This document shows, piece after piece, positions 29,979-33,429 of a stretch of DNA of 47,770 bases; within the stretch, counting starts at the first letter, position 1; each line of letters starts with the position of its first letter. This DNA comes from Acidimicrobiales bacterium (lineage in GTDB: Bacteria; Actinomycetota; Acidimicrobiia; Acidimicrobiales; MedAcidi-G1). A program made the translations under genes and the position numbers. Under the pieces are notes generated by a model, which saw nothing but the letters and a program-made list of their open reading frames with translations, made no database searches and was not told the DNA's origin. The stretch covers positions 1 to 47,770 of the forward strand of contig JAAZXY010000013.1 in NCBI GenBank assembly GCA_014239855.1, in the 5' to 3' direction.

Positions 29979-31472
29979 ATGGCCTCGGAACCCCATCCAG
30001 TCGCGTCGCCGGCCCGTCGCCCCGGGTCGATTCCCGACGGGCTCATCGCCGTCGTCAAGGCCGACTGTCCGGCCTGTTCGTTGGCCCGGTCGGTGTTCGT
30101 CGACCTCGCCGAACGGGCTGACCTGACCGTCTACACCCAGGACGATCCGACCTTCCCCGCCGAGGCCGACTGGGTGGTCGACGACACTGATCTGGCCACC
30201 AGTTGGGGTCTGGATCTCGACGCCGTCCCCACCCTCCTGCGAATTGAAGATGGCGTCGAGACGGCCCGCACCATCGGTTGGGACCGTGACCGGTGGGAGG
30301 AGTTCACCGGGGTCACCGGCCTGGGCCCTGACCTGCCGCCGTTCAAACCCGGTTGAGGATCGCTGACGGTCGATCCCGGGCGGATCGACGAACTGCGGGC
30401 CCGTTACGACGGCTTGGGCCTGACGTCGCGTCGGGTGGAGGTGGGCTCGCTGGAGGACGAGGCGGAGGCCATGTTCGATCGGGGCTGGACCGACGGCCTT
30501 CCCGTGGTCGCCCCGACCGAGGCACGGGTGGCCCGCATGCTCGACGGCACGACGCGTTCGGCCGACGACGTGGTGGCGCTCATGCCCCCCGCTCTCGTCG
30601 AGTGCACGGTCGAGAAGGTGGCCGTGAACGCGGTGATGGCCGGGTGTCGACCCGAGTACCTCCCGGTGGTGCTGGCCGCCCTGGAGGCCATCTGCACCGA
30701 CGAGTTCAACATGCACGGGGTGCTGGCCACCACGATGGGTGTCGGACCGGTGTTCGTGGTCAACGGGCCCATTGCCGAACGGATCGGCATGAACGCCGGC
30801 ATCAACGTCCTGGGCCACGGAAACCGGGCCAACCTGACCATCGGACGAGCCGTCCAGTTGGTGGTTCGCAACGTGGGCGGCGGCCGACCTGGTGAGATCG
30901 ACCGGGCCACCCACGGAAGCCCGGCCAAGCTCTCGTTCTGCTTCGCCGAGGACGAGGCCTACGCCGACCGGGACGGGGGCAGCCCATGGACGACGCTCGC
31001 TGAGGACCGCGGCTTTGCCCGGTCGACCGACGTGGTCACCGCCTTCTGTGGCGAAGCACCCCGGATCCTCGTCGACCAACGCAGCCGGACCGCCGATTCG
31101 CTGGTCCGGTCGCTGGCCGACGGCCTACGGGCGGCGGTGTCGTCGAGGGTCGTGACGGGCATGGACGGCATGCTCGTGTTGTCCCCCGAGCACATGTCCC
31201 GGTTCGCTGACGCCGACTGGGACCGGGCACGGTTCATGGATGAGTTGGGCGCCCACCTGATGGTCGACACGGACGCCATCGTGAGCGGCGCCGGCGGCAT
31301 CGAGGAAGGCCTGCCCGAGGCCATGGCCGGCCTGACCCTCCCCAAGTTCCGCCCCGGTGGGCTACTGGTCGTCCACGCCGGCGGTCCGGCCGGCCTGTTC
31401 TCCTCGATCGTGGGAGGCTGGCTGAACGGCCCGATGGGAAGCGAACCGACCAGCAGGGAGATCACCCCGTGA
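29979..31472 (+). CDS. Candidate selenoprotein: thioredoxin-like domain fused to a domain of unknown function, in-frame UGA at 30354
   Basis: The frame would give 497 residues with selenocysteine at 126. Read conventionally it is two ORFs: 29979-30356 (125 residues) and one beginning at about TTG 30414. Residues 20-110 are thioredoxin-like (VVKADCPACSLA, active-site C30-P-A-C33, then DAVPTLLRIEDG). After TGA the same frame continues without start codon or ribosome site as GSLTVDPGRIDELRARYDG, with GC-rich third positions, into a well-formed 350-residue domain (FDRGWTDGLPVVAPTEARV, VNAVMAGCRPEYLPVV, PKFRPGGLLVVHAGG). I recall, unverified, that Cys homologues have PGCGS here. It overlaps the UGSC gene by GTGA. 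The alternative is two separate genes. Confidence 0.7.
30354..30389 (+). promoter_or_regulatory. Candidate recoded UGA and SECIS-like hairpin 1
   Basis: TGA at 30354-30356 is followed by two competing stems: GGATCG (30357-30362) with CGATCC (30371-30376), or the 8-bp GTCGATCC (30369-30376) with GGATCGAC (30382-30389), whose loop CGGGC lies 21-25 bases after the UGA. The loop lacks the usual GU, so this is the weakest of the three. Confidence 0.5.
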
Positions 31473-32023
31473 ACGACACCGCTCCAGCCACCGTGCAGCT
31501 TCTGGATCCGACGTCCGAAGCCGTGTCGACCGATCGCGCCCTCACCGCTCGGAAGCCTTCGCTGGAAGGGCTCACCGTCGGCCTCCTGGACATCAACAAG
31601 CCCCGGGGCGACGTGTTTCTGGATCGGCTCGAGGACCAGTTGGGCCACCGTGGAGCTGCCGTCCTGCGCTTCGCCAAGCCGACGTTCACCAAGCCGGCGC
31701 CCGCCGACCTCCGCCACGAGATCGCCACCCAGTGCGACGCGGTGATCGAAGCGCTCGCCGATTGAGGATCGTGCACGACGTGCAGTGTGCACGACATCGA
31801 CGATCTGGAACGGCGGGGACTTCCCGGGGTGGTGATCGCCTCGGAACCGTTCAGGGATGCCGCAGCGGCTCAGTCCCGGGCGCTGGGGCTCGAGGTGGCC
31901 ACCGTGTTCACACCCCACCCCATCCAGGACCGGACCGACGCGGAGATGCACGCCATGGCCGACGACCTCGTCGACGCCGTGGTGGACGCCATCACGGCAG
32001 GAGCCAACGCCGACCGTCGGTGA
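31469..32023 (+). CDS. UGSC family selenoprotein, in-frame UGA at 31763
   Basis: The protein has 184 residues with selenocysteine at position 99. The start GTG 31469 overlaps the upstream stop (GTGA), with AGGGAG 9 bases before it. Ordinary translation stops after ALAD, but the frame continues U-G-S-C-T-T-C-S-V-H and then a clearly coding C-terminal half (GLPGVVIASEPF, GLEVATVFTPHPIQDRT). UGSC is the signature of the UGSC (seleno)protein family, and UxxCxxC also recalls selenoprotein B of glycine/betaine reductases. The first half has GLTVGLLDINKPRGDVFLDR. Probably a redox enzyme working with the thioredoxin-like partner. Its end overlaps mutY by 32 bases, tail to tail. Confidence 0.88.
31763..31794 (+). 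promoter_or_regulatory. Candidate recoded UGA and SECIS-like hairpin 2
   Basis: TGA at 31763-31765 is followed by a perfect 8-bp stem, TCGTGCAC (31769-31776) with GTGCACGA (31787-31794). The apical loop (31777-31786) contains GUG about 15 bases after the UGA, as expected for a bacterial SECIS read by SelB. Confidence 0.7.
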
Positions 32024-32873
32024 CGGCCAACCCGTCGGCCACCAGTCGGGAGGCCACCCGGGCCGCCCGCTCCGGGTCGTCGGGCCAACCCATCGTCTCG
32101 GCCAGTCGGACGGCAGTCACGGGACTCTCCGCCAAGGCCGCCACCAGCCGCCCTCGCCCCTGACGATCCGACCCCTCAAAGGTCGCCTGCCGTCCCGACA
32201 CCCCGGCTGATCCGACGGCAGGGTCGTCGCCCTGTCCCCGCCACACGCACCCGGTGGACACCGGGCAGGAACCACAGGTCGGATTCCGGGCCCTACAGAC
32301 GGTGGCGCCGAGGTCCAGCATGGTCTGGTTCCACGCCCACCCCGATCCGGTCGGCACCGAGGCATCGGCCATGGCCTGAACCTCGGCCGGCCGGAGCCGT
32401 CGCCCTGACCGGCGAGCCAGCACACGGGCCACGTTGGTGTCGACGACACCCACATCCTGCTCATCAGCGAAGGCCAGCACCGCCCGCGCCGCGTAGGGGC
32501 CGATGCCGGGAAGCGCCAGGAGGTCGACCAGCCGACCGGGGACCTCTCCCCCATGACGGTCGACGACCGTCGCGGCCGTCCGGTGGAGGTACACGGCTCG
32601 CCGGTTGTATCCCAGACCCGACCATTCGGCGATCACGTCACCGACCGGGGCCCCGGCACAGACCGACGGCGTCGGATACCTGCCGAGGAAGCGCGACCAA
32701 CGCTCGGCCACCCGGTCGACCTGTGTCTGTTGGAGCATCACCTCGGCCACCAGGATCGACCACCGGTCGCGCACCTGCCGCCATGGAAGATCCCGGCGCC
32801 GTCGACCACCCCAGCGGAGCAGGGCGGCTGCCGAACCGTTGGGAAACCACTGCCCGGGATCAGCCTCGTTCAC
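31992..32873 (-). CDS. mutY: A/G-specific adenine glycosylase MutY
   Basis: The product has 293 residues from GTG 32873, chosen because TACCGT ends 7 bases upstream. MutY removes adenine opposite 8-oxoguanine in base-excision repair. Seen: ILVAEVMLQQTQVDRV, the helix-hairpin-helix LLALPGIGPYAARAVLAFA with the catalytic Asp in VVDTNVARV, and the [4Fe-4S] motif C-x6-C-x2-C-x5-C (CRARNPTCGSCPVSTGC). The C-terminal NUDIX-like oxoG-recognition domain is short or missing, which is common in actinobacterial MutY. It is tail to tail with the UGSC selenoprotein, and their 3' ends overlap by 32 bases. Confidence 0.92.
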   Translation of the reverse strand: MNEADPGQWFPNGSAAALLRWGGRRRRDLPWRQVRDRWSILVAEVMLQQTQVDRVAERWSRFLGRYPTPSVCAGAPVGDVIAEWSGLGYNRRAVYLHRTAATVVDRHGGEVPGRLVDLLALPGIGPYAARAVLAFADEQDVGVVDTNVARVLARRSGRRLRPAEVQAMADASVPTGSGWAWNQTMLDLGATVCRARNPTCGSCPVSTGCVWRGQGDDPAVGSAGVSGRQATFEGSDRQGRGRLVAALAESPVTAVRLAETMGWPDDPERAARVASRLVADGLAVTDGRRWLLP

Positions 32874-32880
32874 GGAAGCG

Positions 32881-32886
32881 ACGGTA
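32881..32886 (-). promoter_or_regulatory. Candidate -10 box, leaderless promoter of mutY
   Basis: TACCGT on the minus strand ends 7 bases before GTG 32873. Confidence 0.45.
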
Positions 32887-32923
32887 GCCCCGGACCGGGA
32901 CCCGAGATCCGGGCGCGGCGCGC

Positions 32924-32929
32924 TAGCGT
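32924..32929 (+). promoter_or_regulatory. Candidate -10 box, leaderless promoter of the 32938 gene
   Basis: TAGCGT ends 8 bases before GTG 32938, back to back with the mutY promoter. Confidence 0.45.
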
Positions 32930-32937
32930 CAGCGCCC

Positions 32938-33429
32938 GTGGCGAACGCACCGGACCTCTCGATCGAACTGCATCCCGTGGGTGGGGACCCCCGCCTGCTG
33001 TCGCAGTTGCTGACCACCTTCCCCATGGCCGCCGTGATGGTCGACCCCTACACCCATGAGAGTTCGTGGTTGCTGGACACCGCCCGCCGCGTGCTGACCG
33101 TCTTCCGTGGTGCGGACGTCCGGGTGGCCTTCGTGGTCGCCGGCACCGATGCCGCCGGAGCAGCCAGCTTTCTGGGCCCGCTGACCGACGAGATCCTCAC
33201 GCTGGCCGACCCGGACCGGTCGATGGCCCGCTCGATGGGCCTCGGCAGTCTTCCGGCATTCGTGGCCATTCGTCAGGACGGATCGGTGATCGGCGCGGCC
33301 GAAGGTTGGGACCCTGCGGCATGGCGGACCACGGCGGCCGATCTGGCCGACATGACCAGTTGGTCCCGTCCGGAGATCCCGAGCCTCGGCGACCCGGCCC
33401 CCTACGCCGGCACCGCGGCGCTCGGCTGA
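32938..33429 (+). CDS. Thioredoxin-fold-like protein without CxxC
   Basis: The product has 163 residues from GTG 32938; the open frame continues upstream to 32605 but that part is antisense to mutY. The secondary-structure pattern is thioredoxin-like: VRVAFVVAGTDAAGA, a helix, then the strand-turn MGLGSLPAFVAIRQDGSVIG, which resembles the conserved cis-Pro region. The first strand region (AVMVDPYTHESSWLLDTA) has no cysteine where CxxC would be, so it cannot act as a disulphide reductase. A structural or binding role is more likely. It is transcribed with the LLM oxidoreductase gene 35 bases downstream. Confidence 0.65.
   Translation: MANAPDLSIELHPVGGDPRLLSQLLTTFPMAAVMVDPYTHESSWLLDTARRVLTVFRGADVRVAFVVAGTDAAGAASFLGPLTDEILTLADPDRSMARSMGLGSLPAFVAIRQDGSVIGAAEGWDPAAWRTTAADLADMTSWSRPEIPSLGDPAPYAGTAALG

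Follow-up and report, generated by a model that had tools for sequence, protein, structure and literature searches.

The gene at 31469-32023 of the window, by which we mean the whole analysed stretch of 47,770 nucleotides (positions 1 to 47,770 of the forward strand of contig JAAZXY010000013.1, assembly GCA_014239855.1, from an Acidimicrobiales bacterium of MedAcidi-G1), almost certainly encodes a UGSC-family protein that carries selenocysteine at the in-frame UGA 31763, as judged from sequence comparison. With a probability of about 0.6 for the statement as a whole, we propose that this selenoprotein belongs to a three-part, thioredoxin-fed, GrdB-like seleno-reductase. SelB and tRNA-Sec would decode the UGA as selenocysteine, guided by a hairpin with a GUG loop at 31779-31793; the UGSC product would carry the catalytic selenolate, with Cys102 as the likely resolving thiol; a partner protein of about 350 residues would bind the substrate; and a thioredoxin-like CxxC protein would re-reduce the Sec/Cys pair. 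In GrdB- and PrdB-type reductases the selenolate reductively attacks the substrate, and because of a local similarity to these enzymes and their known biochemistry, we envisage by analogy that the UGSC selenolate would likely attack the partner-bound substrate in the same manner.

UGSC is an already known selenoprotein family, in print since 2008 as a major and abundant group in the GOS ocean survey, with 255 Sec against 21 Cys sequences (PMC2398784), and listed again in later papers (PMC5029168, 2016; PMC9312934, 2022; PMC13188914, 2026). The 2008 paper also mentions a UGSC fusion with a protein termed 'Unknown_1', which may be the partner described below (PMC2398784), and according to the 2026 review, what such proteins do is for the most part uncharacterised (PMC13188914). 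Neither a functional study of UGSC nor a description of the three-gene cassette was found in the available parts of these four sources (PMC2398784, PMC13188914, PMC5029168, PMC9312934). What the present analysis adds is the partner linkage, the fusion and the hairpin record. The steady partner pairing is a new lead to UGSC function, and a nearly one-to-one partner without a family name, together with a sometimes fused candidate electron donor and a different fold prediction, makes a testable enzyme complex. The feature coordinates are collected in Table 1.

Table 1. The putative cassette in the window and the selenocysteine genes of the same genome (C, contig of the assembly)
Feature	Position	Strand	Remarks
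Thioredoxin-like protein	29979-30356	+	125 aa, CxxC; C30 and C33 invariant in 29 aligned rows
Partner gene	30414-31472	+	up to 352 aa; start uncertain, homology from near 30420; Cys78 nearly invariant
UGSC-family selenoprotein gene	31469-32023	+	184 aa, Sec is residue 99; matches NF041046 and PF24696
In-frame UGA, putative Sec99 of U-x-x-C motif	31763-31765	+	UGA in window and 52/52 named relatives; Cys in four no-TGA homologues
Conserved SECIS-like hairpin	31779-31793	+	CGUGCA, GUG triloop, UGCACG; inner six pairs in 70/74 distinct Sec rows
tRNA-Sec	C67:77914-78005		67.5 bits; ARAGORN: SeC, anticodon tca
SelA	C67:91619-92746		over cut-off
SelB	C67:92801-93862		over cut-off
SelD	C111:72317-73237		over cut-off

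The sequence-only reading had described a frame that halts at TGA 31763, resumes as U-G-S-C-T-T-C and ends at TGA 32021, and had predicted that an ordinary annotation would yield a 98-residue and a 78-residue piece. The frame reads exactly so, with 79 further residues after the motif up to TGA 32021-32023, and the standard listing of open reading frames returns these two pieces, an example of how ordinary gene calling splits selenoproteins. When the proposed comparison with the UGSC (seleno)protein family was made, the joined 184-residue protein exceeded both curated cut-offs across the full models, reaching 155.6 bits for NF041046 'UGSC family (seleno)protein', where 125 are required, and 150 bits for PF24696, where 25 suffice. 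Each half alone also matches both models in the right order (positions 2-68 and 77-147 of NF041046, 2-92 and 106-171 of PF24696), and the continuation past the TGA is therefore not a chance one. The U/C-G-S-C active site of the family lies at residues 99-102 and is invariant in 52 aligned rows. At its 3' end the gene runs into a convergent MutY-like gene on the minus strand (31992-33026), the two sharing 32 bases (31992-32023).

Directly upstream lies the partner gene, whose stop codon overlaps the GTG start of the UGSC gene at 31469 (GTGA). Among 51 members scanned, the partner has no Pfam or NCBIfam match of weight; the best Pfam match, SDA1_HEAT, which 21/51 members reach with an E of 1 or lower (0.0084 at best), was taken as chance, and the top Foldseek matches, fumarate hydratases (E 2.1e-4), are given no weight because of TM-scores of 0.27 or less and an rmsd of 14-19 Å. 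Its association with UGSC is close to one-to-one. The partner accompanies UGSC in all 52 named loci and occurs in 69 of 100 related genomes, which a comparison by hand found to be the same set as the UGSC genomes except for one (G065). On the same strand and within 600 bases, it stands upstream of 110 of the 130 UGSC matches in these genomes, downstream of 14 and at neither side of six. One of the six has its partner about 1.2 kb upstream, preceded by the thioredoxin-like gene (G063), two lie at contig ends (G024 and G059:C72), two are weak fragments, and for the remaining one (G098) no partner match was found near UGSC. A phylum sample of 198 genomes gave a similar picture, with the partner in 17 genomes, 16 of them among the 17 with UGSC; one genome has four partner matches and no UGSC match (G289:C272), and another (G302) lacks a partner match, its sole UGSC match scoring 21 bits. 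Cys78 of the partner is kept in 95/96 distinct rows and Cys176 in 88/95, and a single genome can hold as many as ten UGSC and ten partner matches (G059, with L103 and L131-L135).

The thioredoxin-like gene lies upstream of the partner in 50 of the 52 named loci, and in the two others (L071, L091) the contig begins inside the partner. In 17 of these 50 loci the two genes are joined into a single open reading frame, and from linkage and fusion together we infer a putative three-part enzyme. Pfam families of thioredoxin type match it weakly: the best E is 7.2e-6, 16 of 29 members hit PF00085 with an E of 0.1 or lower, and the only such match of the window protein is TraF at 0.028. Among the open reading frames of the 13 kb around the UGSC gene that match at least eight named loci, only the trio and overlapping frames match the proteobacterial loci, and six of these proteobacterial loci share other, unrelated genes among themselves in at most three of six; this distribution fits a unit that moves or stays together. 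Around paralogues the picture is different: neither the 20 regions examined, each 8-20 kb long, nor the surroundings of the paralogues encountered with the named loci yielded the thioredoxin-like gene, so that electrons must come from another source in those cases. In the main clade of paralogues, moreover, the motif reads UGSCTSW with the third Cys absent, and the UxxCxxC pattern is thus not general. The third Cys and the thioredoxin-like neighbour are features of this clade and not of the whole UGSC family. Besides the partner, no gene cluster occurs in more than six of the 20 paralogue regions (11 genomes, rough filter on open reading frames); the cluster reaching six, which we take to be short-chain dehydrogenase-like, was set aside as a cassette member, the count having no enrichment control.

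A structural model of the UGSC protein (52 rows, pLDDT 88.5, pTM 0.81) is built of five successive strand-helix units, residue 99 falling between strand 91-97 and helix 100-115, right ahead of the helix after the third strand. The fold is thus predicted to be Rossmann-like, unlike the thioredoxin-like fold suggested in the 2008 paper (PMC2398784). The top PDB fold matches of the model were weak and mixed, and a sequence search for solved relatives returned none for UGSC, for the partner or for one GrdB of a relative. These observations bear on an alternative that we consider unlikely, namely that the same selenoprotein is a general thiol-disulfide or peroxide-type oxidoreductase, in line with the published thioredoxin-like interpretation, with the partner as its protein client or chaperone. 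Such a role would agree with the UxxC motif and with the linkage and fusion to a CxxC thioredoxin-like protein; however, the model shows no thioredoxin fold (a prediction only), the NCBIfam matches point to GrdB while thioredoxin families are absent from the tally, and most copies, duplicates among them, are accompanied by a partner of their own, as one would rather expect of a specific enzyme. A substrate-specific reductase remains our preferred reading.

The UGA is kept in the relatives. The 52 named loci comprise 45 with actinobacterial titles, mostly Acidimicrobiales, six with titles of Gamma- or Deltaproteobacteria or Halieaceae, and one (L097) from Litorirhabdus, a gammaproteobacterium, and the UGA stands at the Sec99 codon in all 52. 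PF24696 matches were found in 70 of the 100 related genomes, the source genome included, 126 of the 130 matches having one TGA and four having none; two of these four are short fragments, and the other two (L102, L103) place Cys exactly at the Sec codon. In the phylum sample, the 26 matches of the 17 UGSC genomes include 19 with one TGA and seven with none, of which three were read: two (L150 in G257, L151 in G209) have Cys at the codon, while the third, a contig-edge piece (L152), did not show the motif. G257 (100% complete) and G209 (98% complete) gave no selA match, whereas the genomes of L102 and L103 do have it; the Cys form of UGSC thus occurs in genomes with no detected Sec pathway. The sequence-only reading would have been contradicted by homologues that end at this position without Cys or Sec, and those examined have UGA or Cys. 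It is hardly credible, then, that the TGA ends translation or was misread in sequencing, and that the locus is a pseudogene or a pair of separate genes, as the two pieces of the ordinary listing might suggest, given the same UGA in all named relatives, a protein sequence that the alignment shows conserved on both sides of it, and Cys in its place in four homologues.

The source genome (2.35 Mb in 144 contigs, 83% complete) holds the full set that a bacterial selenoprotein requires, tRNA-Sec, SelA, SelB and SelD, which disposes of the other objection that had been foreseen, a genome without selenocysteine genes. The SelD gene (G000:C111, L106) has an in-frame UGA of its own, at the site GAG-U-GCK, and being itself of selenoprotein type, it gives further evidence that this genome uses Sec. 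A second UGSC gene, also with one UGA, lies at C67:120645-121139. Across the 100 related genomes selA is over its cut-off in 77. By hand count, 65 of these belong to the 69 genomes with UGSC and 12 to the remaining 31, a count that leaves aside the 30-bit UGSC fragment of G065; the four UGSC genomes without selA are 69-88% complete. All ten genomes picked by a named locus, seven of them proteobacterial, have selA.

The UGA is followed by a conserved hairpin, whose loop starts 22 bases from the U of the UGA and whose stem is lengthened towards 8 bp in many relatives (31777-31795), the seventh pair being an A-A mismatch in the window. It is not the hairpin that had been pointed out at first. That perfect 8-bp stem (31769-31776 with 31787-31794) is present in the sequence but is not what the relatives conserve: although 83.4% of its cells pair, 39 of 49 aligned rows break the third pair, and 351 of 500 shuffles show at least as much covariation. 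Two relatives (L026, L032) can form a hairpin like this rejected one. The conserved hairpin was scored in 49 of the 53 ortholog rows: all 49 form its six inner pairs and 33 break the seventh, while two pairs are changed on both sides, in six rows and one row. No shuffle of 500 reached its covariation score; the number of pairs changed on both sides is weakly above shuffles (12/500), and that of further pair types is not (407/500 at least match). With paralogues included, 74 distinct Sec rows form 539 of 592 pair cells (shuffle mean 494.9) and contain 32 both-side changes (shuffle mean 7.1), 0/1000 shuffles reaching either measure, counts that ignore row kinship, such that independent events may be few and the Trp rows look mainly like one clade.

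The triloop is GUG in 64 of the 74 rows. TGC is found together with GTG (45 rows) and TGG together with GTC (19 rows), and neither TGC/GTC nor TGG/GTG occurs; as the alignment reads, the Cys/Trp difference is matched by a silent Val change that would keep the stem paired, and natural variation here clearly documents a bacterial SECIS under selection within a coding region. Four rows (L109, L136, L139, L140) have no inner stem, three of them with another 6-bp stem nearby. In L136, L139 and L140, UGSC genes that have diverged (UGSCTPA), the hairpin is another one, rich in GC, and its GUG-containing loop begins 20 bases from the UGA. Among the Cys genes, L102 and L103 form four and five of the eight pairs, L150 and L151 being outside the scoring, and L102 can fold a longer stem in the same stretch at a different offset. 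By the inner-stem counts, the region 3' of the UGA thus carries a probable SECIS hairpin. Recoding of the UGA as Trp or Gly, for which nothing speaks beyond the open frame, can be dismissed in view of the full Sec machinery, the covarying hairpin, the Cys rather than Trp or Gly of the four no-TGA homologues, and the TGA that also terminates the UGSC gene itself.

At the active site UGSC resembles GrdB, selenoprotein B of glycine, sarcosine and betaine reductases, and the UxxCxxC likeness to it that was first noted holds, within a C-terminal stretch only. The GrdB model TIGR01917 hits 51 of 52 UGSC members with E-values no higher than 1 and as low as 1.6e-6; in the window protein, residues 85-175 align to model positions 333-420 of 431 with 21.2 bits against a cut-off of 602.2. 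Common to UGSC and GrdB (TIGR01917, TIGR01918, PF07355) are Sec followed by G-x-x-T-x-C, and LERxG(I/L)P. The same likeness is seen in the GrdB-type genes found in four of six relatives' loci (L110, L112, L113, L115, of the same order), which read UGTGTRC...LERAGIP with U as in-frame TGA, against UGSCTTC...LERRGLP in UGSC; of these genes L112 was scanned and reached 406 bits with TIGR01918, whose cut-off is 65. A profile comparison of UGSC with GrdB covered 29 columns (E 0.0036, probability 9%) on a shallow GrdB alignment of four rows. Because UGSC fails the cut-off and, with 184 residues against about 430, is without the N-terminal part of full-length GrdB, its site appears GrdB-like, yet UGSC is not a GrdB by these comparisons. 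The idea that the partner is the missing GrdB N-terminus or GrdE was also tried, and profile comparison with shallow alignments of four and two rows found nothing.

Some related loci have what we take to be GrdE-like (L111, L114) and GrdC-like genes (L111, L112, L114), and glycine-reductase-type systems in such bacteria seem worth attention. At G000:C52:4644-5003 and at comparable places in many relatives, short stretches match PF07355 (GRDB) in its C-terminal part alone, and in L118 the frame of such a match stops at a TGA followed by PLCTRT; these are possibly further hidden selenoproteins.

In D-proline reductase, the small Sec-carrying subunit PrdB works with a separate substrate subunit, a division of labour similar to that envisaged for UGSC and its partner. 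The PrdB model (TIGR04483) gives a weak match in 4 of 52 UGSC members (best E 0.13), and the Pfam and NCBIfam scans of the partner show no PrdB-type reductase subunit. Tentatively, and with more doubt than confidence, UGSC, the partner and the thioredoxin-like protein may form a distinct Sec-dependent class of three-part reductases, found in Acidimicrobiales and some proteobacteria, whose kinship with glycine and proline reductases would be confined to the Sec site and whose UGSC-partner pairs would have multiplied to serve different substrates. The thioredoxin-fed reductase chemistry of GrdB serves here as a borrowed model, taken from the general biochemistry of such reductases and a recent review (PMC13188914). 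With the UGSC family itself (NF041046, PF24696), described in 2008 as 'UGSC-containing protein' (PMC2398784), the window protein shares the same U-G-S-C, and nothing defining differs.
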